NCBI GenBank assembly: GCA_001770955.1
Contig: MESL01000001.1
Coordinates: 1 to 64,000 of the forward strand
Source: Burkholderiales bacterium RIFCSPLOWO2_12_FULL_65_40
GTDB lineage: Bacteria; Pseudomonadota; Gammaproteobacteria; Burkholderiales; Burkholderiaceae_C
Length of the DNA: 64,000 nt
Direction of reading: 5' to 3'
Both the position numbers and the translations under genes were made by a program. Positions 5,683 to 64,000 of this stretch are shown piece after piece (within the stretch, counting starts at the first letter, position 1; the number at the start of each line of letters is the position of its first letter). The notes under the pieces were generated by a model. That model was not told the origin of the DNA. It did not search any database and saw nothing but the letters and a program-made list of their open reading frames with translations.

Positions 5683-5734
5683 GCGCAAATTCTCTGGTTC
5701 TCTGAAATAACGGATGGTGAGCGATTGTGCCCAA

Positions 5735-6916
5735 TCAGTATCCCGGCACATCCAAATGGGCATCGGATTCTGGGGACTTATTCAGGGTGCTATGCGCAGC
5801 GAGCAGTGTTGCAGCTAGCTGCGAACGCAAAGCATCCAGACCCTCTGACTCTCTCGCACTGACAAAAATTCGGGAAACCGGCTTTCCATCCAGTTCAAAC
5901 GTGTCCACCAATGCCGCAGGGCGCTGTTGAGACTTCAGCGCATCAAGCTTGTTGAACACCAGCAGTTGCGGAATGTCCGCAGCCCCGATCTCATTCAGCA
6001 CCTTCTGGACCTGCTCGATCTGCTCCGGAAAATGTGGATTGGCTGCGTCAACTACATGCAACAGCAGATCGGCGTCCACGGCCTCTTGCAAGGTTGCCTG
6101 AAAGGCCTCCACCAAACCGTGAGGCAAGTCGCGAATGAATCCCACGGTATCGGAAAGAGAGACCGTTCGGCCCGCCTCACCCAGATACAACTGACGGGTT
6201 GTCGTATCCAGTGTGGCAAACAATTGATCGGCAGCGTAGGCCTTCGCCTTCACCAGCGCATTGAACAAGGTGGACTTGCCGGCATTGGTGTACCCAACCA
6301 AGGAGATGTTGAAAGTATCCCTCCGCTCCCGCTGGCGGCGCTGTGTTGACCGCTGGCGCTTGACCTTGGTTAAACGCTCCTTGGTCCGCTTGATCGCTTC
6401 ATCAATCATGCGGCGATCCAGCTCGATCTGCTTTTCACCCGGCCCACCCCGCACACCTGCCCCGCCGGTCTGGCGCTCGAGATGCGACCAACGCCGCACC
6501 AAGCGCGTACTCAGGTAATGCAGCCGGGCCAGTTCAACCTGTAGCTTGCCTTCATGACTGCGTGCACGTTGCGCAAAAATCTCCAGGATCAGGAACGTAC
6601 GGTCGTAGACCGGAAGCTCCATGTGCCGCTCGAGGTTTCGCTGCTGCGCCGGGCTCACCGCCTGGTCGAAAAGCACCTCCACGGCACCATGCATCTGTGC
6701 AAGCACCCGGATTTCATCCGCCTTGCCACTCCCCACAAATAGCGCGGCATCAGGGGCTTTGCGCTTGCATGTGATCCGGGCCACAGGATGAAGACCTGCG
6801 GTCTGCGCCAGCAAACCCAGTTCTTCAAGCTCTGCATCAAAATGGGGTAAACCAAAATCAACCCCCACCAGAACGACTGGCGCGGGACGATGGTCTGAGA
6901 TGTCGGTCGGGCTCAA
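5735..6916 (-). CDS. hflX: Ribosome-associated GTPase HflX
   Basis: HflX is a GTPase that binds the 50S subunit and splits or rescues stalled ribosomes. The 393-residue protein has the N-terminal HflX domain with a glycine-rich linker near GGAGVRGGPGEKQIELDRR. A G domain follows with GYTNAGKSTLFNAL (G1), DTVGFIRDLP (G3) and NKLD (G4). No ATG lies near the N-terminus. The frame begins with TTG at 6916 and a good Shine-Dalgarno is not visible, so the exact start is uncertain. It sits between hfq and hflK, the conserved order. Confidence 0.94.
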   Translation of the reverse strand: MSPTDISDHRPAPVVLVGVDFGLPHFDAELEELGLLAQTAGLHPVARITCKRKAPDAALFVGSGKADEIRVLAQMHGAVEVLFDQAVSPAQQRNLERHMELPVYDRTFLILEIFAQRARSHEGKLQVELARLHYLSTRLVRRWSHLERQTGGAGVRGGPGEKQIELDRRMIDEAIKRTKERLTKVKRQRSTQRRQRERRDTFNISLVGYTNAGKSTLFNALVKAKAYAADQLFATLDTTTRQLYLGEAGRTVSLSDTVGFIRDLPHGLVEAFQATLQEAVDADLLLHVVDAANPHFPEQIEQVQKVLNEIGAADIPQLLVFNKLDALKSQQRPAALVDTFELDGKPVSRIFVSARESEGLDALRSQLAATLLAAHSTLNKSPESDAHLDVPGY

Positions 6917-6969
6917 ATCAGGAAACAGAACTATCGTTCATTCGTGATCTATCAGATCCGCAGGTCCAA

Positions 6970-7224
6970 TCAGGCATTGGTACCGTCAGCGTCGGAAGAT
7001 TCACCAGTGGAAAAACTGACAGCCCGTCCCGGAACGATGGTCGAGATGGCATGTTTATAGACCATCTGAGTCACGGTGTTGCGAAGCAACACGACATACT
7101 GATCGAAGGATTCAATCTGCCCTTGAAGCTTGATGCCATTCACCAGGTAGATGGACACCGGCACATGCTCTCGGCGCAAGGCGTTGAGAAAGGGGTCTTG
7201 AAGAAGCTGGCCTTTGTTGCTCAC
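6970..7224 (-). CDS. hfq: RNA chaperone Hfq
   Basis: Hexameric Sm-like RNA chaperone that pairs small RNAs with mRNAs. At 84 residues it is a short-tailed betaproteobacterial Hfq. Sm1 ([20 protein letters not shown]) and Sm2 with the YKHAIST block are intact. An open frame continues upstream to 7272, but the GTG at 7224 ([12 protein letters not shown]) is preceded by GGAGAA seven bases away and matches the family N-terminus. The gene lies between der and hflX. Confidence 0.97.
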
Positions 7225-7335
7225 GATATTCTCCGTGTTCAAAAATTTTGTTGTAAACCGGCACCTTACCACAGCCCAGACGTTCGCCGCGCAACCCGAA
7301 CGTTGCTATAGCGGCCAGCAGGGTTGAAGTTCGCA

Positions 7336-8679
7336 TCAATGGCTTTCGCCATCCACGAATGGATTGTGGGACGTCTTCATCTCGATGCGCAAAGGGGTCC
7401 CCACCAGATCAAACTCCTTTCGGAAACGCCCTTCTAGAAATCGCTTGTAGGCCTCTGTCACATGCTCAAGCGAGTTGCCATGAATCACGATGACCGGGGG
7501 ATTCATCCCCCCTTGATGGGCATAGCGCAGCTTTGGCCGAAACATTCCGGCACGCTTGGGACTTTGGAACTGGACTGCTTCCAGAAGCAATCGGGTCAGC
7601 ACGGGGGTCGACATCTTGCACATGGCTGCCTTGTGGGCCTGCACGATCGAAGTCCACACCGGCCCCAGCCCCTGCCTCTTTTTGGCAGAAATGAAATGAA
7701 GCGAAGCAAACTTCAGAAATGCAAGCCGCGTCTCGATGGATCGCTCCAGCAGTTGTTTCTGGTAGTCATCAATCGCATCCCATTTGTTGACAGCCACGAC
7801 GACAGCACGACCACTTTCCAGAATGTAGCCTGCAATGTGCGCATCCTGATCTGTAACACCCTGCGTCGCATCCAGAAGCAGCAACACGACATTGGCTGAC
7901 TCGATGGCCTGCAGAGTCTTGACCACCGAGAATTTCTCGATCGCCTCGAAGACCTTGCCCTTGCGCCGCAGGCCGGCTGTATCAATCAATTCGAATTTTT
8001 GCCCATTGCGTTCAAATGGCACGGATATGGCATCTCGCGTGGTGCCAGGAAGGTCAAAGGCCACCAACCGCTCTTCGCCCAACCAAGTATTGATCAGGGT
8101 AGACTTTCCCACATTGGGGCGACCCGCCACGGCCAGTTTAATGGTGCTTTTATCGAACGATTCCTCGTCTTCGTCGGGTTCTGGCAGGTGCAAAAGGCCG
8201 AAAGCCAGCTCCACCAAGCTGCGAATCCCCTGCCCGTGTGCCGCCGAAATGCCGTAGACCTCACCAAGACCCAGCTCGTAGAACTCCGATAACTGCACGC
8301 CTTCGAGCATGCCTTCCGCCTTGTTGGCTACCAGTAGGCAGGGCTTTCCCAGTCTGCGCAGATAGTTGGAAATATCATGATCTTGCGCGGACACCCCAGC
8401 CCGCGCATCGACCACGAAAATGACGACATCGGCCTCCGCTACCGCCTGCTGGGTCTGCTTCGCCATTTCCCGGTAAATACCACTGGCAGCATCGGGCTCG
8501 AAACCCCCTGTATCAATGACGATATATTCGTATTTACCTTGCTTGCCATTGCCATAATGCCGGTCGCGTGTAAGACCGGCAAAATCTGCCACGATAGCAT
8601 CCCGAGATTTTGTCAGGCGATTGAAAAGCGTCGATTTGCCGACATTGGGGCGCCCTACCAAGGCGATCACTGGCTTCAT
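7336..8679 (-). CDS. der: Ribosome biogenesis GTPase Der (EngA)
   Basis: Tandem-G-domain GTPase needed for 50S subunit maturation. Two G domains are visible, each with the G1 motif GRPNVGKST, at about residues 8-16 and 185-193. They are followed by a KH-like C-terminal domain (from about residue 350) containing the RNA-binding stretch PPVIVIHGN. The 447-residue length is normal and the ATG at 8679 begins MKPVIALVG. It is 16 bases downstream of bamB and in the same transcription unit. Confidence 0.97.
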
Positions 8680-8695
8680 TGCATACTACTTTTCA

Positions 8696-9850
8696 TCAAT
8701 CAGGACGGTAACCGTAAATATTTCCGTTGCCGGTAACCACCACCAAAGTGTCCGCCGCCGCCACGGGAGTCGCAGCGACGCCTGAACCGTCGGTCTGCAA
8801 ACGGTTCAATGGCGCGCCATCTTCCCGTGACAGCAGATGAATCAGGCCAGCGTCATCACCAATCACCACGGACCGGCCCAGCACCAAAGGCGCAGTCAGT
8901 TTTCGGTGCTGCAATCGGTCGGTGGACCACAAACGTGCACCGTCCGTACGACGCCACGCCACGACCGCTCCGTTACTTTCAGTACCAAAAACAGTGTCGT
9001 CGTTGCCATGAATACCATGCGATCCACCGGCCTTCTGCACCCACTCTACCGCACCCCGGCTCGCATCCACACAACCAACAGCTACCTGAAAAGCACGGGC
9101 ACACACCGTGCTGCCAACTCGACTGACCGGAGCCACAAGCTCTACAAGACGCTCGACATCATTGGTACCCCGTGGACTGGCCAGCGGCGCCTCCCAGCGA
9201 ACAATCCCATTATCAGGATTCAAGCCGACCAACCTCCCTGACATACCGGCGACCAAGGTATCGCCAACAGCCATCAAGACCCCTGGTTGGCGCAATACCA
9301 GTGGCTCACCTGGACGCGACTGATTCCAAAGGCGAGCCCCACTCCTGGCATCAAAAGCTGCAATGGACCTATCGGCCCCCAGAACAAAAATCCGCGCGCC
9401 CGCAACCAAGGGCGCGGTATAGACTTGCGAGGGCAAGCGCTGACGCCACAACTCCCGCCCGGATTCCAGCACAACAACCTCATTGCCGCGTGCAACCACC
9501 GCGCTCCACTTCCCGTCGCTACCGACACCCGCGACCAATGGTTCGCCCAGACTAACGCGCCACAGATCGCCCCCCGTACGGGCATCAATTGCAGCAACTA
9601 CGCCGTCGGAAGACGCCAGGGTCACAATAGGCCCTTGAACATGCGCTACCAAGGGCATCCCTCGAACGGTGCCAATTTTGGCAGTCCAGACCTGGCGAAC
9701 GCCCAGGACAGGGACATTGACCCCGAGATCGGCGGGCTTGGGCTTGGCAGCGTTTCCACCGAAAAAGGAACACCCTGCCGATCCAGCCACCAAGACCAGC
9801 AAAAGGGTGGCTCGACTGAACGAAAGTGCCATGCGATGGAGCGGCCTCAC
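8696..9850 (-). CDS. bamB: Outer-membrane assembly lipoprotein BamB
   Basis: BamB is the beta-propeller lipoprotein of the BAM complex that inserts outer-membrane proteins. The N-terminus is a lipoprotein signal peptide ending in the lipobox VAGSAGC. The rest is made of repeated PQQ-type blades such as GVVAAIDARTGGDLWR and SIAAFDARSGARLWN. The GTG at 9850 has GGAG eight bases upstream and overlaps the yfgM stop (GTGA). An ATG at 9832 is an alternative that still leaves a workable signal peptide. Confidence 0.95.
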   Translation of the reverse strand: MRPLHRMALSFSRATLLLVLVAGSAGCSFFGGNAAKPKPADLGVNVPVLGVRQVWTAKIGTVRGMPLVAHVQGPIVTLASSDGVVAAIDARTGGDLWRVSLGEPLVAGVGSDGKWSAVVARGNEVVVLESGRELWRQRLPSQVYTAPLVAGARIFVLGADRSIAAFDARSGARLWNQSRPGEPLVLRQPGVLMAVGDTLVAGMSGRLVGLNPDNGIVRWEAPLASPRGTNDVERLVELVAPVSRVGSTVCARAFQVAVGCVDASRGAVEWVQKAGGSHGIHGNDDTVFGTESNGAVVAWRRTDGARLWSTDRLQHRKLTAPLVLGRSVVIGDDAGLIHLLSREDGAPLNRLQTDGSGVAATPVAAADTLVVVTGNGNIYGYRPD

Positions 9851-10527
9851 TTCACGGTCTCCGTTGCGGCCGCCACTGCAACCGCCTGAGGTTGCACCCC
9901 CAGCGCATTGAGCTTGACTTCAATCAGGCGGCGGTACTCCACGCTCTCAGGGAAATTTTTGTAAGCAAGGGAATACTCCGCAATCGCCTCCTGCTTTTTT
10001 CCCTGCAAGACCAACACATCCCCTTTGCGATCCGCCACCACGGCCGAATACTCGGGAGCGAATGGTGAAGCAAGCTGCTTCAAGGCTTCGTCGTAGGCCT
10101 TTTGATCCATCAGAATCCCGGCCAGACGCAACCGCGCCAGAGACTTGTAACCCTCATCGCCAGCATGATCGGCAACCCAGAGCAGCGCCGCCTTGGCTGC
10201 ATCAAGATTGCCCTTGCCAACATAGGTCTTGGCGACCAAAAGCCCGGCCTGCCCTGCCTGATGGGTACCGGCATATTGACTGCGCATATCGGTAAACGCC
10301 TGTTCGAGGCGTACCTCATCCCCCGCAGTGGCAGCCGCATCGACCGCATCGTAGAGAGCGCTCGCTTGGGTCGCCTGCCTTGTTTGCCAATACTGATAGC
10401 CATTCCAGGCGGCCAGAGACCCAGCCACCAACAAAAGTATCGAACTGATCAGTGTTCCCCAGGTATTCCAGAAATGCTTCAGCTGATCTAGCTGCTCTTG
10501 TTCTTCAAGATCGAGGTGATTTGCCAT
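9847..10527 (-). CDS. yfgM: YfgM family TPR-like inner-membrane protein
   Basis: A 226-residue protein with a short cytoplasmic N-terminus (LDLEEQEQLDQLKHFW), one transmembrane helix (about residues 23-45) and a periplasmic tetratricopeptide-like domain. This is the YfgM/DUF2133 layout. In E. coli YfgM associates with SecYEG and periplasmic chaperones, so a role in envelope protein traffic is inferred. It lies between hisS and bamB as in most proteobacteria. Its stop overlaps the bamB start. Confidence 0.92.
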   Translation of the reverse strand: MANHLDLEEQEQLDQLKHFWNTWGTLISSILLLVAGSLAAWNGYQYWQTRQATQASALYDAVDAAATAGDEVRLEQAFTDMRSQYAGTHQAGQAGLLVAKTYVGKGNLDAAKAALLWVADHAGDEGYKSLARLRLAGILMDQKAYDEALKQLASPFAPEYSAVVADRKGDVLVLQGKKQEAIAEYSLAYKNFPESVEYRRLIEVKLNALGVQPQAVAVAAATETVK

Positions 10528-10541
10528 GAGGTTTATTCAGA

Positions 10542-11867
10542 TTAACGATCAGATTGTAGGGTGATGGCCCATTCCGCCACTTGCTCCAGTGCGTGCTCAG
10601 CCTGCTGACCACTGCCATCACGCAAGGACTTCAGCAGCACATTGCCGCGCTCGAGTTCCGTCGCGCCAAAGACCAATGCATAGCGTGCGCCACTTGCATC
10701 AGCCTTCTTGAATTGGGACTTCATGCTGCCCATTCCTTCCCCGGCCCCTGTCGGACTGTGCATCTGCACACTCACGCCCAAAGCGCGCAACTTTTGCAGA
10801 AGCGCCATTGCTACAGGCAAAGCGGCCGCGTCAGGTACCACAGCATAGACCGATGGTGCAAGCACGGGACATCCCAGCCCCTGCTCTTTCAGAAGTTCCA
10901 GCACGCGTTCGACACCCAGCGCCCATCCCACAGCCGGCGCAGATTTGCCGCCAATCTGTTCGATCAGATAGTCGTAACGCCCCCCGCCACATATCGTGCC
11001 TTGCGAGCCCAGACGATCCGTCACAAACTCGAATACGGTGAGGTTGTAGTAATCCATGCCGCGCACCAAACGCGGGTTCACTGTCCAAACAACCCCGCAG
11101 GCAGAAAGAATTGCCTGAACCCCATTGAAATGGGCCAAAGATTTCTCACCCAGAAAATCAATCAATCGGGGCGCTGCCTCGACCAGGGACTGCATGGCTG
11201 GGTTTTTGGTATCCAGAATACGCAAGGGATTGCTATACAGACGCCGGCGCGCCTCCTCATCTAGCTGCGAAAGATTCTGTTCGAAATAGGCGATCAAGGC
11301 CGCACGGTGGGCTCTGCGCTCCTCCGGCTGCCCAAGGCTGTTCAGCTCCAGCCGCACATTTGTCAGCCCCAGCTCCTTCCAGAGTGCGTCGGCAAGCAGA
11401 ATCATCTCTGCGTCGATTTCTGCACCGGGAAAACCCAACGCCTCCGCACCAATCTGGTGAAACTGACGATAACGTCCCCGTTGCGGACGCTCATGCCGGA
11501 ACATCGGCCCCATGTAGTAAAGCCGCTTGCCGCCGTCATACAACATCGAATGCTCGACCACGGCACGTACAACCCCGGCCGTGCTTTCAGGTCGCAAGGT
11601 CAGCTGCTCACCGTTGAGACGATCCTCGAAAGAATACATTTCCTTTTCAACGATATCCGTCACCTCCCCCAGCCCCCGCACAAACAGCCCCGTAGGCTCG
11701 ACGATGGGCGTGCGGATGTTGCGATAGGCGTGGCGGTCCATGAGCGCACGAACCTTTTCCTCCAGCCACTCCCATTGCGCGGAGTCTGGTGGAAGAATGT
11801 CGTTCATGCCCTTGACCGCCAACAGCTTTTCAACTTTGGTCGGAGGTAGTGCTTTTTCAGTACTCAC
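10542..11867 (-). CDS. hisS: Histidyl-tRNA synthetase
   Basis: Class II aminoacyl-tRNA synthetase that charges tRNA-His. The 441-residue protein shows motif 2 ([21 protein letters not shown]), the histidine-binding block [14 protein letters not shown] and motif 3 ([14 protein letters not shown]). A C-terminal anticodon-binding domain starts near residue 340. A short leader ([14 protein letters not shown]) precedes the usual KGMNDILPP. It is 14 bases upstream of yfgM and about 100 bases downstream of ispG. Confidence 0.97.
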
Positions 11868-52773: not shown

Positions 52774-52833
52774 GAAAACGGCCTCCAAGGCATGACCGAT
52801 AAGCGCTGACAGCTATCTATTCAATAGCTCATT
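52774..52833 (+). repeat. Dispersed intergenic palindromic repeat, copy 7
   Basis: Contains ACGGCCTCCAAGGC, then ATAAGCGCTGACAGCTATCT and CAATAGCTCA. It lies between ppsR and the IS110 remnant and marks the last core-type intergenic region before the accessory segment. Confidence 0.6.
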
Positions 52834-53279
52834 GACGATCGCTTTGCTGTCTCTGATGCGTGCGGAGCACCGCGGACGAAGGGGCAGATGCGGCAAAAAT
52901 CGGTTGTGGGTGCTGGTTTCGACCCGAAGTGATGCACAAAGCGCATATTCGGCCGGATGACGGCTTCACAGATGGCAGCGGCATCCGCTGCATCGTTCTT
53001 GCCACGCTTGCATGAGAAGCGGTAGGGAATGACGAACTTGGGTGCCATCAGGCGTACGGTGTGACCGAACCTCTGGAATTCGCGGGCCCAGTGGTGGGCA
53101 CCAGAGCAGGCTTCCATGCCAATGAGACACGGCGGCAGCGCGGCGATGAGTTCGAGCAGCTTGGCACGCGGCACACTGGGACGTAAAAGTACAGGTTTGC
53201 CTGTGGCATCAACGCCATGCACAGCAAAGACATTCTTTGCCAGATCGATTCCGATGGTGACAATGGCAGACATGGACAT
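52821..53279 (-). pseudogene. Truncated IS110 family transposase
   Basis: Only the N-terminal DEDD domain remains: VTIGIDLAKNVFAVHGVDA, CLIGMEACSGAHHWAREFQ and CKRGKNDAADAAAICEAV. Homology stops near residue 128 (after NMRFVH), and the following ~30 codons are unrelated sequence before a stop. A full IS110 transposase is about 340-400 residues. The C-terminal serine-containing domain is missing, so it is inactive. Confidence 0.85.
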
Positions 53280-53410
53280 CCCCTTCCAACAAACGAGTGC
53301 GTTGATGAGAGATCGAACTTCCCATCGTGGCACTTGGAAGCCTTATCCCGCAACTGCGCGGTTCTCTCGGGACGGGGAAGTCCCTTTCATTCGTTAAGGC
53401 GCAGAAAGCG

Positions 53411-53728
53411 ATGTCGCCACTCACCAAAGCCCGTTTCCAAGTGGCATGGGCGGGCCTTACTAACGTTGCCAAATTCAACCTCGATAACTGGCGACGCGCA
53501 ACGCCGGCAGTTCGCGCAGTCTTCGTATTCTGCGTAGCTTGCTCTGTCTATGCTTGCTGGTATGTTGTCGAGAACCGCGGGCTGCGGGTGAGTTTTTCGG
53601 AGGCATGTAAGGCGAAATGTGTCCCTTTGTCGTTTCGTGTTGAAAAGACTCTGCTGAATCCATTTATAGGGGAGGATCAGCGACGAAACATCCGGGAGGT
53701 GCGCTGTGTCTGCGGTACCTCCCCTTAA
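53411..53728 (+). CDS. Hypothetical small membrane protein with cysteine-rich C-terminus
   Basis: A 105-residue open frame of unrecognised family. A basic N-terminus precedes one transmembrane helix (about residues 37-57, AVFVFCVACSVYACWYVV). A short domain with cysteines in CKAKC and near the end in CVCG follows. The ATG at 53411 is chosen; the frame is open from 53327, but that overlaps the IS110 leader. It lies between two IS elements. Similar small one-helix proteins occur in phages and islands, but no function can be given. It could also be non-coding. Confidence 0.4.
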   Translation: MSPLTKARFQVAWAGLTNVAKFNLDNWRRATPAVRAVFVFCVACSVYACWYVVENRGLRVSFSEACKAKCVPLSFRVEKTLLNPFIGEDQRRNIREVRCVCGTSP

Positions 53729-53804
53729 CATGCCAATCGACTCGGACCTACAACACCAAGTAGCGGCTTCGCAGAGTATGTTGGTGGTCCGGTCATTTTT
53801 ACGT

Positions 53805-54960
53805 TAAGGCAACGCTGATTAAGGTCCACCATTGAGAGGGGTCAAACGTTATCCGCAGATGAAGCAGCAGACCTTGGCAATGGCCGCAGATCAAGACAAC
53901 GGATTCGAGCATTCGCGCAAACCCACCCGACGCGAAGAGTTCTTGCGGACCATGGAGACAATAGTGCCATGGGCCGCTCTGTGCCAGGTGATAGAGCCGC
54001 ACTACCCCAAAGCAGGCAACGGCCGCCCGCCCATTGGCCTTGAGCGCATGCTGCGCATCCACTTCCTGCAGCACTGGTTCAACCTGGCCGATCTGGCGTG
54101 CGAAGAGGCCCTGTACGACAGTGCCAGCCTGCGCCGCTTTGTGGGCATTGACCTGGGCCGCGAGCGCGTGCCCGATGCCACCACGCTGCTGAAGTTTCGC
54201 AAGCTGCTCAATGAGCACAAACTGGGTGAAGCCCTGTTTGCCCAGGTAGGCCAGCAACTGCAAGAGCGCGGCTTCAAGGTCAACACCGGCACCATCGTGG
54301 ATGCCACCATCATCGCCGCGCCCAGTTCTACCAAGAACGCCGACAAGGCGCGCGACCCCGACATGCACCAGACCCGCAAAGGCCAGCAATGGTATTTCGG
54401 CATGAAGCTGCACATTGGCGTGGACAGCCAAAGCGGGCTGGCGCACAGCGCCGTGGTGACGGCGGCCAACGTGCATGACAAACACCCGCTGCCCGATCTG
54501 CTGCATGGCAACGAGCAGCGCGTGTACGGCGACTCGGCCTACGCCAGCCAGAAGGCTCTGATCCGGGGCAAGGCGCCCCAAGCCAAAGACTTCACCAACC
54601 AGCGCACACGCAGGTGCGGGGTGGTCGACCAGACGCAGCGGTCCAAGAACCGCAACAAGTCCCGCATCCGCGCTCGCGTAGAGCATCTATTCGGGGTGGT
54701 CAAGCGGCTGTGGGGCTTTGGCAAGGTGCGCTATCGCGGGCTGCAAAAGAACGCCACGCGCGCGTTCACGGCCTTGGCGCTGGCCAACATCTACCTTGCC
54801 CGAGGGCGCCTGCAGGGACAGGTGCGCCCGTAAGGGTCTGAAGGGGGCTCAAAGGCTCCCGAAACAGGCCCTGTGGGGCAAAGTCCGGCATCTTTGCGGG
54901 CCATTTGGCATTCAAATGGCTGTGCAATGGAGTTGACGCTACTTGATCAGCATTGCCTTA
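53805..54960 (+). mobile_element. IS5 family insertion sequence, complete
   Basis: About 1,156 bp bounded by inverted repeats of 18 bases: the left end reads TAAGGCAACGCTGATTAA, and the right end, read inward, gives TAAGGCAATGCTGATCAA. It contains one intact transposase gene. No matching target duplication is visible at the two edges, so one flank has probably been rearranged. Its right end abuts an IS3 remnant. Confidence 0.88.
53859..54833 (+). CDS. IS5 family transposase
   Basis: A 324-residue DDE transposase. It has the N-terminal IS5 block FLRTMETIVPWAALCQVIEPHYP, the first Asp in NTGTIVDATIIAAPSS, the second in VYGDSAYASQ and the Glu in IRARVEHLFGVVKRLWGF. Length and catalytic residues are complete. 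The ATG at 53859 (MKQQTLAMAADQD) fits the family; a 9-codon upstream extension is open. Confidence 0.93.
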   Translation: MKQQTLAMAADQDNGFEHSRKPTRREEFLRTMETIVPWAALCQVIEPHYPKAGNGRPPIGLERMLRIHFLQHWFNLADLACEEALYDSASLRRFVGIDLGRERVPDATTLLKFRKLLNEHKLGEALFAQVGQQLQERGFKVNTGTIVDATIIAAPSSTKNADKARDPDMHQTRKGQQWYFGMKLHIGVDSQSGLAHSAVVTAANVHDKHPLPDLLHGNEQRVYGDSAYASQKALIRGKAPQAKDFTNQRTRRCGVVDQTQRSKNRNKSRIRARVEHLFGVVKRLWGFGKVRYRGLQKNATRAFTALALANIYLARGRLQGQVRP

Positions 54961-55083
54961 GCGCTTGAGCAGTTGGAAGAAGCTCTCGGCCACAGCGTTG
55001 TCGTGGCAGTTGCCACGCCGGCTCATGCTGCTGAGCAGGTTGTGGTCGCGCAGGAAGGTCTGCCACTCGTGGCCAGTGAAGTA
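54961..55083 (-). pseudogene. IS3 family transposase remnant (minus-strand fragment)
   Basis: About 40 codons of an IS3 orfB core on the minus strand: FTGHEWQTFLRDHNLLSSMS and RRGNCHDNAVAESFFQLLKR, including the catalytic Glu. It is cut at 54961 by the right end of the IS5 element and at 55083 by a junction with a second IS3 fragment in the opposite direction. Confidence 0.75.
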
Positions 55084-55369
55084 TTGCAGTGCACAGTTCC
55101 AGCAGGCTCTGAAGAAATGCGGCATGCGTTCATCGATGAGCCGCAAGGGGAACTGTTGGGACAATGCACCAACGGAGAGCTTCTGGGGTCGTCTAAAAAC
55201 GGCCAGCGTGCATGGGCACAAATTCGCCACACGTGAGCAGGCCAGGCGGGCGGTGATGGACTGGATGGCCTTCTACAATCACCGCAGGCTGCATTCGACA
55301 TTGGGCTACCTCAGCCCGACGCAGTACGAACAACGCTGGTACGAGGCACAGCGCAAAAAGGCCGCGTGA
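55082..55369 (+). pseudogene. IS3 family transposase remnant (plus-strand C-terminus)
   Basis: The last ~95 codons of an IS3 orfB on the plus strand: FQQALKKCGMRSSMSRKGN, CWDNAPTESFWGRLKTASVHG in part, and AFYNHRRLHSTLGYLSPTQYE. The C-terminus is complete with a stop at 55369, but the N-terminal two thirds are missing. It belongs to a different IS3 subgroup from the adjoining minus-strand fragment. Confidence 0.75.
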
Positions 55370-55404
55370 ACCGTGGGTTATGAACTCCACGAAACAAGGG
55401 CAAG

Positions 55405-55735
55405 GTCACTACCTGCCCATTGGCCAGGCCTGGCGCAGGAACTGGAACCGGCTGACGCCGTTCTTTGACTACCCGGCAGAAATCCGAAAGGTCATCTACA
55501 CATCCAACGCCATCGAGTCGGTGAACATGGGCCTGAGGAAGCTGAGCAAGAACCGGGGCTCGTTCCCCAGCGATGAGGCGCTGACCAAGCTGTTCTACCT
55601 GGCCCGCGCAACATCAGTCAGAAGTGGACCATGCCCATCCAGGATTGGAAGGCCGCGCTGACGCGCTTTACCTTTCAGTTCGGAGACCGCATCTCCGTCA
55701 ACTAAAGTCCGAACCGTTTACACAAAAATTCGGAC
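55405..55735 (+). pseudogene. IS256 family transposase remnant, truncated and frameshifted
   Basis: The C-terminal ~100 codons of an IS256-type transposase: RLTPFFDYPAEIRKVIYTSN, AIESVNMGLRKLSKNRGSFP and LTKLFYLAR. A one-base deletion after the LFYLA codons shifts the frame. The remainder (NISQKWTMPIQDWKAALTRF) continues in the next frame to a TAA at 55703-55705. The right end of the element is visible as an inverted-repeat-like GTCCGA...TCGGAC stretch ending near 55735. Confidence 0.8.
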
Positions 55736-55952: not shown

Positions 55953-56549
55953 TCAGCATTCAATCCACCATCGGGCAAATCCAAGCAGATCTTGATGGCT
56001 CGAGTCCACGCGTGCCAATACTTCGTTGGTGTTCGGGCTTCCATTGGGATCTCGTATCACCAAGGCCTTATGGATACCCGGACCCACGCCGGTGAAGTAA
56101 GGCCCGAAATCGTCGACAAAGGCCAAAGGCTGTAATGCTCTCAGCACGGGTGCCTTCGGGCTTTCGTGCAGCGCCTCCATGCTTGTGGTGATCACTCGTG
56201 CGATCGGAAATCCAAGGGACTGGAGGTTGCGCTGGCGCGCCTGACCAAATTGCTCATCCAGCGCCGTGACACAGAGCAATTCGTGGCCATTCTCCACCAG
56301 AAGCTGGCATGCCTGCAGTGCGCCCGGCATGGCAGGAATGGAACTCCAGAAATCCTGGTCGAACTGCCTGCGGAAATCCTCCAGGTCTTGCCCGGACAGC
56401 CTCGGAACCGCCCAGCGCTGCATGGGCCAATAGGCCTGCGGGTCGCGCTCAACAGGATCGCTTCCTGAATACCGGGCCCATGCACGTCCATACGCCGTGC
56501 CGTAGTCGAGGAGCACACCATCTGCATCCAGAGCGATGATCTTTTTCAT
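55953..56549 (-). CDS. HAD superfamily hydrolase
   Basis: A 198-residue HAD-fold protein. Motif I is IALDADGVLLDYG, with the nucleophile and acid Asp at residues 7 and 9. Motif II lies in LLCVTALDEQ (Thr). A motif IV-like FVDDFGPYF follows, and the motif III lysine may be the one in ESPKAPVL. The cap is small and helical. Such proteins are phosphatases or nucleotidases; the substrate is unknown. The ATG at 56549 starts MKKIIALDADG. It stands alone between the IS cluster and the recombinase operon. Confidence 0.85.
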   Translation of the reverse strand: MKKIIALDADGVLLDYGTAYGRAWARYSGSDPVERDPQAYWPMQRWAVPRLSGQDLEDFRRQFDQDFWSSIPAMPGALQACQLLVENGHELLCVTALDEQFGQARQRNLQSLGFPIARVITTSMEALHESPKAPVLRALQPLAFVDDFGPYFTGVGPGIHKALVIRDPNGSPNTNEVLARVDSSHQDLLGFARWWIEC

Positions 56550-57106: not shown

Positions 57107-57910
57107 CTAGGCAATTCGCACGAAGTCTGCCACGCTGATGTCGTCACTGCCGATCACGCTTCCGATGCGAACAATCAGTTCTATCGGAGTGCCTGTGTAC
57201 TCGGCTCTGTCCAATGCGGTAGCGTCCTCAAGCGTTGGGGGCCGATCGTGCATGCGAAGACGTTTGACTGAATGCAAAGACGCCGGCAATTGTGCGCGTT
57301 GCAACAGCTTCAACGTAAATCCCCGTTGTTCGCGTAAGAGCTGGGTGCGGATGCGGATTGGGGTACCAACCCATTCATAGCGTGGAAGAGCGGGGAGTTC
57401 CATTTGCCAAGGATGGCCTTCTGAAAGGTGTCCGCACCATCGTCGGTGGCGTGAACTGATCAGCGCGGTCAGTTGCCTTTCCGTTTCGTGCGCGAGTGCC
57501 TCATCTGGCGAATCCAGAAATGCTGCATGCAGCCGCTGCGCAAGTGCAATGGTTGCGTGGGAATTTTGGACCGGAAGTTCCTCGCATGCATGCCTCAGGC
57601 GTTGCCTGTCTTCAAGCAGGTTTCTCTCCAGATTGCCTGGAGTGGTGTCGTCACCTTGAAAGTTCAGCAGTCGCTGAGGTCGATGTGTGAGTTCAAGTGC
57701 CAGAACGATAGATGGTGATCCAGTCTCGTCGCTGCGCAACCGATAGCGGTACGTTAGTGTCGTGAATTTCAGCAATCTTTCCACTGCAAGTAGCCTGGTA
57801 AGGTCTGAAACCACGGCTTGGGCTCGGTGCCGCAACTCCCTCTCTTCAAAGAATTCGGGCAACCCACGGATCTCCAACTCCATCACTCTTATCGTGATCA
57901 AAGGGTTCAT
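57107..57910 (-). CDS. Unknown protein, third gene of the recombinase operon
   Basis: A 267-residue soluble protein with no family I recognise. It starts MNPLITIRVMELEIRGLPEF and is rich in Leu, Arg and Glu, with long predicted helices (ETERQLTALISSRHRRWCGH). No signal peptide or membrane helix is seen. Its ATG overlaps the stop of the tyrosine recombinase gene (ATGA), so it is translationally coupled and probably an accessory factor for recombination. The frame is open upstream to 58045, but that part lies inside the recombinase. Confidence 0.75.
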   Translation of the reverse strand: MNPLITIRVMELEIRGLPEFFEERELRHRAQAVVSDLTRLLAVERLLKFTTLTYRYRLRSDETGSPSIVLALELTHRPQRLLNFQGDDTTPGNLERNLLEDRQRLRHACEELPVQNSHATIALAQRLHAAFLDSPDEALAHETERQLTALISSRHRRWCGHLSEGHPWQMELPALPRYEWVGTPIRIRTQLLREQRGFTLKLLQRAQLPASLHSVKRLRMHDRPPTLEDATALDRAEYTGTPIELIVRIGSVIGSDDISVADFVRIA

Positions 57911-60624
57911 TGATGTTCGTTCCGTTGAGAGTGGGCGACGTGTAACCAAACCCACGCGGCCAGGAAGGCGCCGTGCAGCCCGGTGATCGAGTGCGCACTG
58001 CCGTTCGCATTGCCTATTGCGGCGTCCGAACTGATCACGAGCCACAGAGGAGGGCGGCCATGGCGATGAGTGCGGCGTACCTGCGTAAGCGAAGTGCCCA
58101 GCCGGTATCGCACGGAGACTTGGGCGCGCGCGAGCGCTTCAAGAACTTCATCGAACCGCTTTTCGCTGGATGACCAATGTATCGACATGAGGCTGCGATT
58201 AATGCCGGAGTTAGAGAGCAGCCAGATGAAGCTGTCCCACCCCGATCCAGAGCGCACGGCCAGATGGCGACCATGGGCGGCACGATCCCAGTAGTCGGCT
58301 GCTTTTCGCAGGCGCAGCAACTCGACCTTTTCAATTGCCTCCGTCAGTTGACGCCAGCGTCGCTGCGACAGCCTGTCAAAGTCCGCTCGCACTCCCAGCA
58401 GGTGGCCAGAAGAATCTCGCAGCGCTTGTACGCCGTGGCTGTGGGCATCGAGCATCGACGAGGATGTTCTGACGTGGCGCTCTGCAAAATCGCCCACTGC
58501 TTCCACAATCAGAACAACCTGCGACTCTGGCACTCCATGGCGTAACGAAACTTGCTTTGTTGAAAGTCCTGACGCTGTTTCACGAAGCACTCCTACAACC
58601 TGACTGTAGGCAAGCGCATGCGGTTGCGTCGATGGCAGTGGACTGGTGGGTATCGCCATGGCGATTGCTTCGCTGATCGGCTGCAGAGGAACGCGCTGGG
58701 CTGCGTCGCTCAGTGACATTCGCAGCATTTCCGCAGCAGATCCGCCGTGCTTGGTTGCGCGGCTCGCACGCTGGCGAAGCGTTTCGGGTGCCAGCCCCGT
58801 CCAGGCCGATGTCCCAGCGTAATCCAAATGCAGGCGCGTTAGCGCCACGTTGATGGCATTCCTGAGGCCAGTCTCATAGATGTGGCAGTAATGCACAGCA
58901 GTCACGTGCCCACCAATGTGCCCCATCTCGTTGGCCAGCCGATCTAGCGGATTGACCTCGTCGTCATTGTCTTGAAGAAGCATCGCCGCCAGGCGTTGGC
59001 TGGCATGAGTATGGCGGAATGAATGAAGACTGATGTTCTCATCACCAGTGACTGTCTTCAATAGGCGGTTTAGCCAGAAATACATCTTGCCGGCGTGCGC
59101 CAATTCCGTTGGCCGATCTGGTTGCCCAAAGAGATAGTCTTGATCGATGGCAAGTTCCGCTGCGCGTCGAGCGAGCCAAGTTCTTACGATCGCCATCGCA
59201 GTGGTGTCGCAGACCATCACGCGGCGCCGGCCCTCATGTGACTTCTCTCGACCGTCACGCAGCTCGCGTGCGATTTCTACCACCAGATGGTCTCCCTCAT
59301 CGAGAACATTGCCGATGCGCAGCACCAAGAGTTCACCAATCCGCACAGGCGCATTGCCGACAATTTCCAGAGCTGCACCCAACTGAGCGACGAAGCGGTC
59401 TGCTTGAGCATCTCTGGCTAGCCATTCCCGCAGCCGCTCTTCTTCGTGCGGCCAGATCAGATTGGCACGAACGTTGGTTTCCACCTCGACCTGGAGCAGG
59501 TCGGTGGGTAGTGGCGGCACTTGCCACCAGGCGCGCAGGAATTGGTGAAGTGCCTTCAGCGATGCGATGCGGGCGGGTCCCATGGTTGCGCTGCCGTCCG
59601 CCAACTTACGAAAAATGCCAGCGTAAGTTGTCTCGTTGATGCCATACAGCCGAACGCCATCGAGTGCCACATGAAAATCTTCCGCCACTGAGTTCAGATA
59701 GTCTGATGGTGTGGTGGGCGCAAGACTCTTCTTGCGCTTGGTGCCGTTCTCGACGAGATCCAGTGCAAACGCATACAGGATGGCGGATGCTTCGTCGGCA
59801 GCGTCCAGGCTGGCTGCCAGTGATTGCAGCCGATGCAGGATCTCGTCACGCTTGCTGGCATTCGATCCTTTGGTGGGGGGACGCAGTGCCGCAAGAAGTT
59901 GGCGAATGAAAGCGGCGCCGCTGCGAATCGAGGCAGGACGCCCAAGGAGGGCGGTTTCAAAGGCACGTTCGTACACTGGGTGTGAGAGCGTGCCCTGTGG
60001 CACCGGATCTGCTGCTTCGGGTAACAGCGCCTGCCCTGTTTGCGCCCGTGCCCACGCGCTGCGCGGCATAGCGCTCAAGGCTGCTGCACCGCTTACGTGG
60101 CCGTACAGAACTGGTGGCAGGTGGATTTGCAACCAACCCATGGCGGTTTTGAGGAGGTGTTCCCAGACTGAGTCAGCGGTTGAGGCGATGCTGATCTTGA
60201 AAGTGCGGGCGCACAGCGTGTCTACGAGATGTTTGCAAACCAGGTCATATGGTTCCCACTCCTTCACTCGGGCCAGCGCCAGGGTTGTCCAGACGCTCAG
60301 GTGGCGAGCATCAAGGCGGGAGCCAATTTTCCAGTCCAACCGCACTGCTGTCTCGCATCTGCTGACTTGAGGGCAAGAGGAGTACGCGGCTTTCAGTTCT
60401 GTGTCGGTGGCGATTCCATCAAAGGCAATCAGGCATGCCAGTGTCAGGCTTGACGGTCTCAAATTTTGCACGCCGGCGGATGTCAACCAGTGCTGAAACT
60501 CCTCAAACTGCTGGATGCTGGTGCCGAGATTCTTGAGGTGCAGGAAATGCATCCGCCGGCTTGGATCGGGGGTGAAAAGTGAATGCTTGAGGGATGAACG
60601 ATCAGGCCTTTTTTTGTGATTCAT
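57907..60624 (-). CDS. Large tyrosine recombinase/integrase
   Basis: A 905-residue protein with a full tyrosine recombinase catalytic set. Arg428 lies in PVRIGELLVLRI, His534 and Arg537 in SLHSFRHTHA, His569 in MGHIGGH, and the nucleophile Tyr579 in AVHYCHIYE. About 400 residues precede the catalytic core; typical integrases have 150-200. About 320 residues follow the tyrosine, which is very unusual. The ATG at 60624 sits five bases after AAGGAG; an ATG at 60627 overlaps the stop of the upstream gene (TGATG). It should carry out integration or excision of a genomic island. Confidence 0.88.
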   Translation of the reverse strand: MNHKKRPDRSSLKHSLFTPDPSRRMHFLHLKNLGTSIQQFEEFQHWLTSAGVQNLRPSSLTLACLIAFDGIATDTELKAAYSSCPQVSRCETAVRLDWKIGSRLDARHLSVWTTLALARVKEWEPYDLVCKHLVDTLCARTFKISIASTADSVWEHLLKTAMGWLQIHLPPVLYGHVSGAAALSAMPRSAWARAQTGQALLPEAADPVPQGTLSHPVYERAFETALLGRPASIRSGAAFIRQLLAALRPPTKGSNASKRDEILHRLQSLAASLDAADEASAILYAFALDLVENGTKRKKSLAPTTPSDYLNSVAEDFHVALDGVRLYGINETTYAGIFRKLADGSATMGPARIASLKALHQFLRAWWQVPPLPTDLLQVEVETNVRANLIWPHEEERLREWLARDAQADRFVAQLGAALEIVGNAPVRIGELLVLRIGNVLDEGDHLVVEIARELRDGREKSHEGRRRVMVCDTTAMAIVRTWLARRAAELAIDQDYLFGQPDRPTELAHAGKMYFWLNRLLKTVTGDENISLHSFRHTHASQRLAAMLLQDNDDEVNPLDRLANEMGHIGGHVTAVHYCHIYETGLRNAINVALTRLHLDYAGTSAWTGLAPETLRQRASRATKHGGSAAEMLRMSLSDAAQRVPLQPISEAIAMAIPTSPLPSTQPHALAYSQVVGVLRETASGLSTKQVSLRHGVPESQVVLIVEAVGDFAERHVRTSSSMLDAHSHGVQALRDSSGHLLGVRADFDRLSQRRWRQLTEAIEKVELLRLRKAADYWDRAAHGRHLAVRSGSGWDSFIWLLSNSGINRSLMSIHWSSSEKRFDEVLEALARAQVSVRYRLGTSLTQVRRTHRHGRPPLWLVISSDAAIGNANGSAHSITGLHGAFLAAWVWLHVAHSQRNEHQ

Positions 60625-60626
60625 CA

Positions 60627-62723
60627 TCACTCCTTGCGTAGCCCCGGCAGGGATTGGATGCCGAGTTCTCTCAAGACCATCAGCTGAATCGCTTCAATAC
60701 GATCAAGGGTATCGCGGGGGATGCTGACCTGGGAATTGGTATTCCTTTCTAGGCCTACGACACGATGTCGCATGAAACTATCAATGTCCCTTGATCTCAG
60801 CCCGCGTTCACGTAGCACGTTTTGCCAGAAATGCCGGCCAGCATTGGGTAGCACCCTGATGGACTCTGGCACTTCACGCCAGGTGAAATGTGCGCCTGCC
60901 GCGTGGACAGTTCCGCTGGAGCTGACTGTCAGAAAGAGGGGGCCTTCACCGTCCAGGGAGGCACGCAGCCTCTGTGCGAGCAAGAGTCCGTGGCGGTCAT
61001 CTAGTCGCTGCAGACGTTGTACAAGAGCCCTGGCGTGTGCTGCATAAAGGCGGATTTGCTCTTTGATCAGCGAGTTCAGCAGGGCTGGCTGGGCCATCAG
61101 CGGATTGCCTCCCTGCTTGTCGTGCACCACAACCTGATTCTGCCCATCCAACAGTTCTTCTGCCAGCAGGCGATAACACTGGACCTCACGCAGACCAGCG
61201 CAAAAGCTGATCAGTGCAACGCAGTAGCGCACGAAGTGGGCATGGTGATTTAGCAGGCGAACTGCATGTGCATTGCGTCCTGGCAGAGATGAGATGACTG
61301 CACTAGCGAGCGTTGCAAACAGATGCTGGGCACCATCGAGGTGTAGCGTTGCGTGTGAGCCAACGCATGGTATATGTTCCGCATCCATGATTGGCGCGCC
61401 CCAACCAATCCCTTCATAGAGCCTTGCGCAGCCAGCGTAAATGTCGTGACCAGTGAGCCGCGCGTAGTACATCCGTGCTGAGCCGATCAGAGAAAAATCC
61501 GCGCAGATGCAAGCAGACACGAGCCGGTCGTTGCCCAGGGCCAGTGAGATGGCGCCTGTGGATTTTTCGGCACGGGCCAGGGATGCCTGGAGCTTGCAGG
61601 ACTCATTGAGAATCAATGAATCTCGCGGGCTCACCTGGACCCAGTCCACCAAGTCTCCGAGCAGAGCCGCCTGTGGATAGGCTTGGCTGCGTCGCTGGAT
61701 TTCCTGCACTAGAAAAACTGGCAGGGGCACAACAATGGTGTCGCCGCTGAAGTGGAAAAGGCTGGCTGTTGCGTCGGAGGGACGCGCTCGATTCGGAAAC
61801 AGTGCACGCAAGTTGAGCTTCAGGCACCCGGATCGGGCGCAGATTCCGAGCATGTTCAGGGGGCGGTACACCGTCACCAACGGCAGGCTTAACAACAGGC
61901 GTGGAGGCAAATTTACGAATAGGCATAGCGACTGAATTACCGCCTTGCCGTCACCAGCTTCGACTCGCGTCCGAAGCAGTGTTGCGACACGCCGGTATTG
62001 CGCCACTGGTAGATGGCTATCGTCGAACGCTGCTTGACGGTGTTTCGGGTTCGGGTAGTCGATGCGCCAGCGAAGTCTGGCAAGCAGGTCTAGTACGTGG
62101 TGCTGGCGAGCATGAAGAGGGCGGCGCGGGCCAAGCTCGTCCAGTTCAACACGGCGGCGCACCTGCAGATCAACTTTTTGGAATCGCACCAGCCAGCCGC
62201 GCCCGAATCCCAAATCAGCCAAGTCATCCAGCATGCGATGTTCGCCAGGCTGAGGACGCCCATACTTGACCGTGTCGCGACGCAAAGCGACGCAGTAATC
62301 AAGCTTAAGCAGAGTCCTTTCCAGCAGACAACGGGCAACTTCGGCGCCTAGCGCGACCCTGAGCGGCAGGTGTTCCTCTTTGAGAGCAAACAGCAAGGCC
62401 AATGCCGGATATTCGGAGAGCCGACCTGCCAATGGAACGGCCGGCATCAAGCCCTGGATGACCTCGATGTGGGTTGAGGCGCAGTGGTAAATCAATTGCG
62501 CGGCACCGACCCATTCCAAGAAAAATGGACGCGCATTATTGATGCTCTCTGCATACTCCACCAGGCACTTGGCCAAGGTAGTGATCATGGTTGCGGGTGC
62601 AGGTTGATCCGCGGGCTGTGACAACATGCCAAGGAGTAGTTCGAGCATTTCCTGGCTGGATTCGGGGATAACCGAGCGCAGTCGAGCCATCGGCTCCAGC
62701 TCGGAACAGATTAGAGTGGTCAT
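60627..62723 (-). CDS. Divergent tyrosine-recombinase-like protein lacking the nucleophile
   Basis: A 698-residue protein, first gene of the operon. Its C-terminal third resembles a tyrosine recombinase core. Arg512 lies in CAGLREVQCYRLL, a Lys in VVVHDKQGGNPL, Asn627-x-x-Arg630-His in PNAGRHFWQNVL, and His653 in IDSFMRHRVVG. The HxxR box therefore starts with Asn, and no Tyr occurs after His653, so strand cleavage by the usual route seems impossible. The ATG at 62723 has a strong AGGAGAAGG upstream. It is probably a partner or regulator of the recombinase encoded next, but an alternative chemistry is not excluded. Confidence 0.75.
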   Translation of the reverse strand: MTTLICSELEPMARLRSVIPESSQEMLELLLGMLSQPADQPAPATMITTLAKCLVEYAESINNARPFFLEWVGAAQLIYHCASTHIEVIQGLMPAVPLAGRLSEYPALALLFALKEEHLPLRVALGAEVARCLLERTLLKLDYCVALRRDTVKYGRPQPGEHRMLDDLADLGFGRGWLVRFQKVDLQVRRRVELDELGPRRPLHARQHHVLDLLARLRWRIDYPNPKHRQAAFDDSHLPVAQYRRVATLLRTRVEAGDGKAVIQSLCLFVNLPPRLLLSLPLVTVYRPLNMLGICARSGCLKLNLRALFPNRARPSDATASLFHFSGDTIVVPLPVFLVQEIQRRSQAYPQAALLGDLVDWVQVSPRDSLILNESCKLQASLARAEKSTGAISLALGNDRLVSACICADFSLIGSARMYYARLTGHDIYAGCARLYEGIGWGAPIMDAEHIPCVGSHATLHLDGAQHLFATLASAVISSLPGRNAHAVRLLNHHAHFVRYCVALISFCAGLREVQCYRLLAEELLDGQNQVVVHDKQGGNPLMAQPALLNSLIKEQIRLYAAHARALVQRLQRLDDRHGLLLAQRLRASLDGEGPLFLTVSSSGTVHAAGAHFTWREVPESIRVLPNAGRHFWQNVLRERGLRSRDIDSFMRHRVVGLERNTNSQVSIPRDTLDRIEAIQLMVLRELGIQSLPGLRKE

Positions 62724-63483
62724 GGGGCCTTCTCCTCAAAAAAAAAAGCGCACGAAAACGATCCGCCCACGCCTGGGCAGTCAGGGTTGATTGGCCAATG
62801 GGATGCTCGGCGGGGCCAGGACCGCGTGAAATGGGATTAGCGCTGTAGGCGTACAACGCATCGCCGTGAAGGGCGTTGAGAAACCTGCAATACAGGCTTT
62901 CGCGCTAGGCCGTGTGGCAAAGCGAGTTATGAAGTTGACACTGGGGATGTGCCAATTAAATTACCGCAGTGACGCGGTAGCCCTAGCTGGCGAGGGCGTG
63001 AACAAACCAGCGCTGGAACGTGTTCTCGCACTGGTGAATGACCGCTGAATTGACCGTCAGCTCGGCGCGCTCCCTAGAATCTAAGGAATAAGCAGTAAGA
63101 ATGTCTTCTTGGCTGCTTACGACTCATCCATGGACAAGTCACACAGTTGACATGCTACGACACTTTTCGGCAGGTGTGGGGCCCGTAGGGCGGCTTGGTA
63201 ATTGAGTGACGTGGCTGCCGCGCACGATGAGCTGGGGAGTGCCAGCTTTCAAGCCATCATCGTCCTGTTCCCACAGGGGTAGCGTTCCCATATCACTGAA
63301 GCCCAATGGTCGGAAAGTGTTGAGGGCCGGAGCAAGCTTTTGGAGCACTCCTGTGACAACGGCGACCTATGTAGGGCTTAAGTGATGGAGGATGTCACGA
63401 GTTAAGGTGTTGATTCACATTGTTTTTTGTCGTTTTACACCTGATGCCCACATCCAAGACCATTGCAGGTATGCAATGGTTTT
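62724..63483. other. Probable end region of the island, no convincing gene
   Basis: About 760 bases upstream of the recombinase operon. Short open frames exist on both strands (for example a 69-codon minus frame at 63139-63348), but none has a family match or a good ribosome site. The segment contains a perfect small hairpin at 62962-62979. It leads into a degenerate tRNA 3' end. Its likely role is to hold the operon promoter and a recombination site. Confidence 0.5.
62962..62979. repeat. Perfect hairpin TACCGC-N6-GCGGTA
   Basis: Six-base arms TACCGC and GCGGTA enclose AGTGAC in an otherwise AT-richer stretch, about 240 bases upstream of the recombinase operon start. It could be a protein-binding or recombination core site, or part of the operon's control region. 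Confidence 0.35.
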
Positions 63484-63530
63484 CGTCGGCTCATAACCCA
63501 TCGGAGGTTCAAATCCTTCTCGCGCAACCA
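63484..63530 (+). pseudogene. Degenerate 3' portion of an initiator tRNA-Met gene (likely attachment site)
   Basis: The segment reads like the 3' half of a tRNA-fMet gene. It has an anticodon loop CTCATAA (anticodon CAT), a T-arm GGAGG-TTCAAAT-CCTTC and an encoded end GCAACCA. The anticodon stem lacks a base relative to a normal tRNA-fMet and has a mismatch. No 5' half able to pair with the acceptor strand is found upstream. It is therefore a tRNA fragment, as left at one end of an island integrated into a tRNA gene. A terminator follows directly. Confidence 0.7.
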
Positions 63531-63557
63531 ATAAAATCAAGCTCTTAGCTTGTCTTC

Positions 63558-63586
63558 AAGGCCCACTTCGGTGGGCCTTTTTGTTT
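63558..63586 (+). terminator. Intrinsic terminator after the tRNA fragment
   Basis: GGCCCAC, loop TTCG, GTGGGCC, then a run of T. AAGG before and CCTT after extend the stem. This is the form usually found after tRNA genes and supports the view that the preceding fragment is a relic of a true tRNA gene. Confidence 0.9.
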
Positions 63587-64000
63587 TGTGTCGAGGTTTG
63601 TGACGAGGTCGGTGTCGTCACAGTTTCAGGCCTCAGCGCTAGCGACCATTGGGTATGCGTCGAGTTTCTGGAATCAATAAAACGTATTGTTCTTTGGAAC
63701 TCGAGTCAAGAGGTCGAGAGTGGCGGATCTCCGCATGCTGCTCAATATAGCTGCAGCTCCGCTGGCCTCAATGTAGGACCGCCGCATCGACTTCGGCATT
63801 GCAGCGGCTGCGGTCAGTCGCGACTGATCTCGTGAATACACGGTCGAGGTCGCTTTCCAGTCGTTCTAACTTCAGCAACGACAAGACGCCAGCGACTGGT
63901 ACTACATCTGGGGGTCAGTTCAAAACCGGAGATGGCATCGTCCGCCCCTCGTCACGTGGGCAGCCGCGAATAGCGATCATGGGCAGCAGCAGCCACTGCG
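63587..64000. other. Right window edge, nothing recognised
   Basis: About 410 bases beyond the terminator. An 84-codon plus-strand frame ends at 63835, but its sequence is not family-like and overlaps the terminator at its start. No RNA gene, repeat or clear coding region can be supported here. Confidence 0.4.

Follow-up and report, generated by a model that had tools for sequence, protein, structure and literature searches.

A putative site-specific recombination module of tRNA islands: an apparently unnamed tyrosine recombinase and its coupled, often fused, degenerate partner

Among the mobile elements that combine recombinases are Tn554, the strand-biased circularizing integrative elements (SE) and the GInt islands, a large recombinase being described for SE and Tn554 (PMC10214605). 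The SE gene order is intA-tfp-intB-srap (PMC10214605): an ordinary integrase (IntA) comes first in the operon, and Tfp, with a recombinase fold and no catalytic residues, lies directly upstream of IntB, a large active recombinase, which is followed by a small gene. The GInt operon is described as consisting of two full recombinases, GinA and GinB, a third protein without catalytic residues, GinC, and a small HLH protein, GinD, coupled at one end of cargo islands (PMC5385486). RIT elements and Tn554-type pairs have adjacent, overlapping tyrosine-recombinase genes, one of them sometimes abnormally long (PMC3414803). RIT elements (about 3.5 kb) hold three recombinase families, each with a possible catalytic motif (PMC3414803), and the motif is present in both proteins of the Tn554-type pairs (PMC3414803, PMC10214605). 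Partners lacking catalytic residues, i.e. GinC and Tfp, recur in such multi-recombinase elements, and the accounts of these elements offer only guesses at their role (PMC5385486, PMC10214605).

We analysed a stretch of 64,000 nucleotides from Burkholderiales bacterium RIFCSPLOWO2_12_FULL_65_40 (hereafter the window), in which three coupled genes on the minus strand span 5.6 kb. P1 (60627..62723, 698 aa) encodes a degenerate tyrosine-recombinase-like protein, P2 (57907..60630, 905-907 aa depending on the start) a large tyrosine recombinase of the active type, and P3 (57107..57910) a clade-specific protein of 267 aa. The P1/P2 junction reads TGATGATG, the TGA of P1 sharing one base with the first ATG of P2; a GTG start would give P2 907 aa, the ATG at 60627 906 aa and the ATG at 60624 (57907-60624) 905 aa. 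The stop of P2 and the start of P3 overlap by four bases (57907-57910). All three genes are kept in Acidovorax sp. MR-S7 (698/905/274 aa) and Acidovorax temperans DSM 7270 (698/905/270 aa), with identities of 76-77% for P1, 74-75% for P2 and 60-61% for P3, and because these two genomes conserve the whole set the three open reading frames are not due to chance. Beside the operon, at 55953-56549, lies a frame of 198 aa that by eye resembles a HAD-type phosphatase.

P2 is the sole operon protein with a family match, to PF00589 (Phage_integrase; E 5.8e-7, residues 415-543), and within this domain it has a complete R-K-HxxR-H-Y active site (R428, K461, H534, R537, H569 and Y579), which places it in the tyrosine recombinase superfamily. 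In the alignment of relatives R428, K461, R537 and Y579 are invariant in 29/29 rows, and His is found at position 534 in 26 rows and at position 569 in 27. These residues were recounted on 29 rows after the row of locus L068 had been removed; an open reading frame downstream in L068 was considered as its P2 and rejected, since the motifs do not fit.

P1 has the catalytic-type residues R512, K536, R630 and H653 and lacks the His of HxxR and the Tyr, and is therefore short of a complete catalytic set. In the alignment without L068, R512 and K536 are found in 29/29 rows, R630 in 28/29 and H653 in 27/29; the HxxR His position is occupied by Asn in 19/30 rows and by His in 1/30. There is no Tyr in the 14 residues after H653 in the window, in the three relatives with all three genes, or in L125. 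A Tyr does follow at +8 to +13 (mostly +11) in 8/30 rows, none of them in the window's clade, so that the nucleophile is missing in most rows but not in all and, judging from sequence, P1 may be active in some relatives. Another tyrosine, Tyr420 (window 61464-61466), lies ahead of Arg512 and is invariant in 29/29 rows. P1 matched no family in Pfam, NCBIfam, PHROGs or PADLOC at E 10. In hhalign its C-terminal third aligned with the catalytic domain of P2 (E 2e-4, probability 47%) and the catalytic positions coincided; P1 may thus have a tyrosine-recombinase fold. The AlphaFold model of P1 was poor (mean pLDDT 47.0); every one of its top ten PDB matches is a tyrosine recombinase, the best at E 0.077, so these fold matches are not significant alone, and the models of P1 and P3 were not taken as stand-alone evidence. 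A sequence-only reading of the window had described three coupled minus-strand genes of 698, 905 and 267 aa, a full catalytic set in the middle protein alone and a recombinase-like partner without a nucleophile; the coordinates, overlaps and residues agree with all three statements (the partner being the first protein), with the correction that the P2 start is ambiguous by two codons.

The same reading took the three genes for the conserved unit, which did not survive a survey of genomes for their co-occurrence. P3 is 28-61% identical in L122, L123 and L124, and among 2,603 frames from 65 loci its profile matched only in the window, A. temperans, MR-S7 and G027, i.e. in four genomes, all of the window's clade; the conserved unit is therefore the P1-P2 pair, often one fused protein, and the trio was rejected as such. 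P3 matched no family in Pfam, NCBIfam, PHROGs or PADLOC (E 10) and no PDB sequence, and its AlphaFold model was unusable (mean pLDDT 45.6). The third genes of L048, L065, L072 and L176 did not match the P3 profile. In L176, a Ketogulonicigenium plasmid, the pair is followed by a gene of 248 aa that overlaps P2 by four bases (5714-11714), a trio-like layout in which the third protein is not P3.

We regard P1-P2 as a family that apparently has no name yet and that joins an active-type recombinase to a degenerate partner, by gene coupling or, often, by fusion into one protein. Open-access searches found no literature on the pair (this is no proof of absence), and three annotated records label these proteins integrase, tyrosine-type recombinase/integrase, site-specific integrase or hypothetical protein. 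A survey with the single proteins in 199 genomes, the window's own included, found P2 in three and P1 in five, and in G123 both match one open frame of 1,799 aa. A scan of a genome collection gave four loci: the two Acidovorax trios, a trio of 697/914/261 aa in a Gammaproteobacteria MAG (the G027 locus again), and a P1-P2 pair without a P3 match in a Burkholderiales MAG. With a P1 profile (A1) built from five sequences, matches were obtained in 13/369 genomes of the class (own genome counted) and in 14/300 genomes of the order (own genome and the seed genomes G116 and G123 counted). All 30 matched loci that were not own or seed copies were examined with the P1 and P2 profiles and their arrangement was counted by hand. 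P1 lies directly 5' of P2 in 24 of the 26 assessable loci, as two frames in 12 and as one frame in 12, the latter count taking in L058 and L064, where only the end of P1 joins P2. The other four loci (L047, in which an insertion-sequence-like frame comes first, L049, L063 and L073) meet a contig end within about 530 bases and could not be assessed. A profile search of the locus frames found no P2 in L059 and L068, and the P2 matches of L054 (E 0.006 in one search, below threshold in another) and L072 (E 3e-4) were weak. Full-length P1-P2 single frames reach 1,941 aa; in L064, L058 and L177 the frame is interrupted in its P1 or P2 part, or that part starts late in comparison with relatives. In a tree of the 30 rows, in which some deep nodes are weak and the later-dropped L068 row is still present, neither the split nor the fused members are confined to a single clade. 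Queries with other members gave five matches in a plasmid collection, with P1 directly before P2 in four (Vibrio cyclitrophicus, Sphingobium yanoikuyae, Ketogulonicigenium vulgare and one Aeromonas caviae place); at the second Aeromonas place P2 is split into two pieces, which lie some 3 kb or more downstream of P1. Searches of IMG/VR, phage records and plasmid records with P0002 and L051 as queries gave nothing useful.

The pair is frequently found beside a tRNA end. In 14/37 loci (12 of the first 28 and two of nine added later) the 2 kb 5' of P1 contain a tRNA 3' end, which in all 14 points away from the operon, with none on the other strand; thirteen are fragments and one is an intact tRNA-Val found by ARAGORN at L049. 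The paired T-arm test used here required at least 1 kb upstream of P1, so that L053, L054, L061, L066, L075 and L122 were left out, and it detected no tRNA end within 2 kb in the remaining 23/37 loci. A looser first pattern gave false matches and was replaced by this test with a control, in which 3 matches in 658,814 nt elsewhere in the 28 loci lead to an expectation of about 0.34 tRNA ends. The fragments begin at or near the anticodon loop (by eye; an intact tRNA was compared only for fMet, Pro(CGG) and Arg(CCG)). Four relatives hold whole islands on one contig, with an intact tRNA (by ARAGORN) at the far end and the displaced 3' fragment at the end that carries the pair, the start of P1 being no more than 0.8 kb from the fragment in 4/4: the A. 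temperans island in tRNA-fMet (NZ_VFPV01000002.1, about 473.4-584.7 kb; length about 111 kb, fragment 0.8 kb upstream of the trio), the G003 island of the window's genus, also in tRNA-fMet (47 kb, fused P1-P2 beside the fragment), the G741 island in tRNA-Pro(CGG) (39 kb), and the Burkholderiales MAG island in tRNA-Arg(CCG) (28.7 kb). In G638 the intact tRNA-Pro is on another contig, hence no island length is given, and in L070 the intact tRNA sought with the L125 query was not found. From these tRNA-bounded islands in relatives, the operon looks like the recombination module of a mobile island, as had been proposed from the sequence. In locus L051 an exact 23-bp direct repeat (oriented 2095 and 11501) flanks a compact 9.4-kb unit of fused P1-P2 and an integrase, and this repeat is within a small HTH-like frame near tRNA-Arg and tRNA-Ser, not in a tRNA.

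In the window the 3' part of a tRNA-fMet, from the anticodon loop to CCA, is found at 63488..63530 on the plus strand as a displaced att fragment, and the island end between P1 and this fragment occupies 62724..63487. The intact tRNA-fMet of the same genome is on another contig (C2:5213-5289), and the window shows the fragment end only. A. temperans has kept the 0.76 kb that separate P1 from the fragment, the common stretch (75.6% identical) extending beyond the fragment to 63586. Within it, at 63460-63479 and ten bases from the anticodon loop, there is a perfect inverted repeat, CCATTGCA-GGTA-TGCAATGG, nearly kept in A. temperans (L123), which is a possible recombinase binding site. The flank at 63531..63806 on the plus strand is common to the stretch behind the genome's intact tRNA-fMet, window 63488-63806 being 96.6% identical to C2:5259-4935, so that it looks like a tandem-island junction or an attP-like junction; from its sequence, 63531-63806 reads as the left end of another island. 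The flank of the A. temperans fragment was checked in the loci of 20 relatives and lies directly behind an intact tRNA-Met in 12 (83-87%); the other eight are A. temperans itself (one), a flank without tRNA-Met (one) and matches to other parts of the query only (six). The A. temperans flank is thus native, and that of the window differs. To the left of the operon a run of insertion-sequence transposase remnants (52821-55661), which we take to be IS110-, IS5-, IS3- and IS256-like, lies between the core genes and the island; these remnants run into core genes, and the window's island is therefore rearranged. On another contig of the same genome (L108, C23:7700-10988) a third tRNA-fMet fragment, AbiE genes and a P1-like frame ending in an insertion-sequence-like frame perhaps represent a second, broken island of this kind.

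We propose, with a probability of about 0.55, that P1 and P2 each form one half of a single enzyme for site-specific recombination that serves tRNA islands. P2 would be the catalytic tyrosine recombinase, and P1 a degenerate recombinase that holds or positions the DNA and that, in the window's clade, would make no attack on it. The two would act 1:1, which would account for the translational coupling seen here and for the one-chain fusion in many relatives. The islands lie in tRNA genes, inserted at the anticodon loop or close to it, with the pair at one end and transcribed inward; there the pair would bind the island end and take part in integration and excision, probably together with a conventional integrase, and P3 would be a lineage-specific accessory. 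A bolder version, which we consider rather unlikely, is a half-active recombinase with one active and one permanently inactive unit per site, in many lineages in one chain: exchange would be limited to one strand pair, and replication or the second integrase would have to complete the junction. If true, this architecture alone would explain why multi-recombinase elements show strand bias and lack an empty site. A partner that is often fused to its enzyme also offers a one-protein object for structural and biochemical work. The family also marks tRNA-island ends, with anti-phage genes nearby in three scanned cases: cargo near three tRNA-fMet ends includes an Avs3a-like protein (C2 of the own genome), a CBASS cyclase with a 2TM effector (G003) and AbiEi/AbiEii (C23 of the own genome). 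The scan covered eight proteins chosen by eye and is no census; for two of them PADLOC gave no match, and for one the matches were weak.

The main evidence against the pair as sole integrase, and the reason for holding the proposed function at this level, is a second recombinase in the islands. All four whole islands hold a frame of 414-514 aa that is a conventional integrase or has a PF00589 match; the integrases of G003, G840 and G741 gave one profile, that of A. temperans is a PF00589 match only, and the arm-binding domain PF12167 was found in the integrases of G741, G840 and MR-S7. This family is convergent with the pair downstream in 8/30 loci with at least 3 kb downstream, at a distance of 62-4,402 bases, is upstream of it in L067 and L076, and in the Aeromonas locus L173 lies convergent 1.3 kb downstream. 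It may be that the conventional integrase carries out or shares in integration. That it does all the integration and excision, leaving the pair as a resident island module with another job (replication, relaxase-like nicking for transfer, or the exclusion of rival islands from the tRNA site), is possible though doubtful. For this speak the occurrence of one integrase family in the G003, G840 and G741 islands, at ten other pair loci and at L173, the P1-P2 pairs on plasmids, and the G741 island (fragment, P1>P2>, cargo, <integrase, tRNA), where the integrase is about 0.9 kb from the intact tRNA and could alone integrate the island. Against it, at least 10 kb separate the integrase or integrase match from the nearer island end in G840, G003 and A. 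temperans, while it is P1 that starts close to the tRNA fragment in all four whole islands, and the window shows no integrase-family match in the 5.1 kb downstream of the operon. The proposed role in tRNA islands is itself weakened by the 23/37 loci in which the test showed no tRNA end within 2 kb, and by the pair on the Vibrio plasmid, where the 16.6 kb seen held no integrase-family match.

Two further explanations were considered. A reading of P1-P2(-P3) as a small element in its own right, a transposon or integrative element akin to Tn554 or GInt that prefers to insert beside island ends, would agree with the plasmid-borne pairs and with the combined recombinases described for Tn554, SE and GInt (PMC10214605), yet the tRNA end is found in one orientation only (14/14) and A. 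temperans shares the stretch from P1 to the fragment, and we consider it improbable. Least probable of all, to the point of being hardly credible, is that the pair is a decayed relic of phage-type integrases without present function: the window's island is cut short on the left by insertion-sequence remnants, P1 lacks catalytic residues and L047, L064, L108 and L177 are broken, but open frames of up to 1,941 codons are kept in divergent genomes and four catalytic residues of P2 never vary.

On the features tested, the pair belongs to none of GInt, SE, RIT, Tn554 and GMT (Gamma-Mobile-Trio), in keeping with the mismatch to the GInt, RIT and Tn554 sets noticed at the outset, which extends to SE: the operon has one active-type recombinase, and similarity to Tfp or Srap was not detected. 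The GMT trio includes recombinases as well, and P2 did not match the GmtY model (NF040693, recomb_GmtY, 441 positions) at E 10. The likeness to GMT is that of mobile islands with antiphage cargo (PMC12039261). Compared with RIT elements and Tn554-type pairs, which share the adjacent, overlapping genes, the catalytic motif is here in one of three proteins, P2, and the operon measures 5.6 kb. GInt is alike in its coupled recombinase operon at one end of cargo islands and in a protein without catalytic residues, but P1-P2 comprises one full recombinase, one degenerate partner and an optional third gene, a distinction that is made by description, not by sequence. SE, whose circularization is strand-biased and leaves no empty site, are nearest in gene order, and an ordinary integrase is present in them as in the P1-P2 islands (PMC10214605). 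When searched against the proteins of SE-6283 and SE-6945 (pSEA1), the P1 and P3 profiles matched neither Tfp nor Srap; the P2 profile did match IntA of SE-6283 (E 2e-5 in a set of nine proteins), which can happen between recombinases. SE also differ in that their ordinary integrase stands first in the operon, whereas that of the P1-P2 islands is usually downstream and convergent where seen; the sites seen for P1-P2 are tRNA genes, and the pair is often fused. Its mode of action may to some extent resemble that of SE or GInt.
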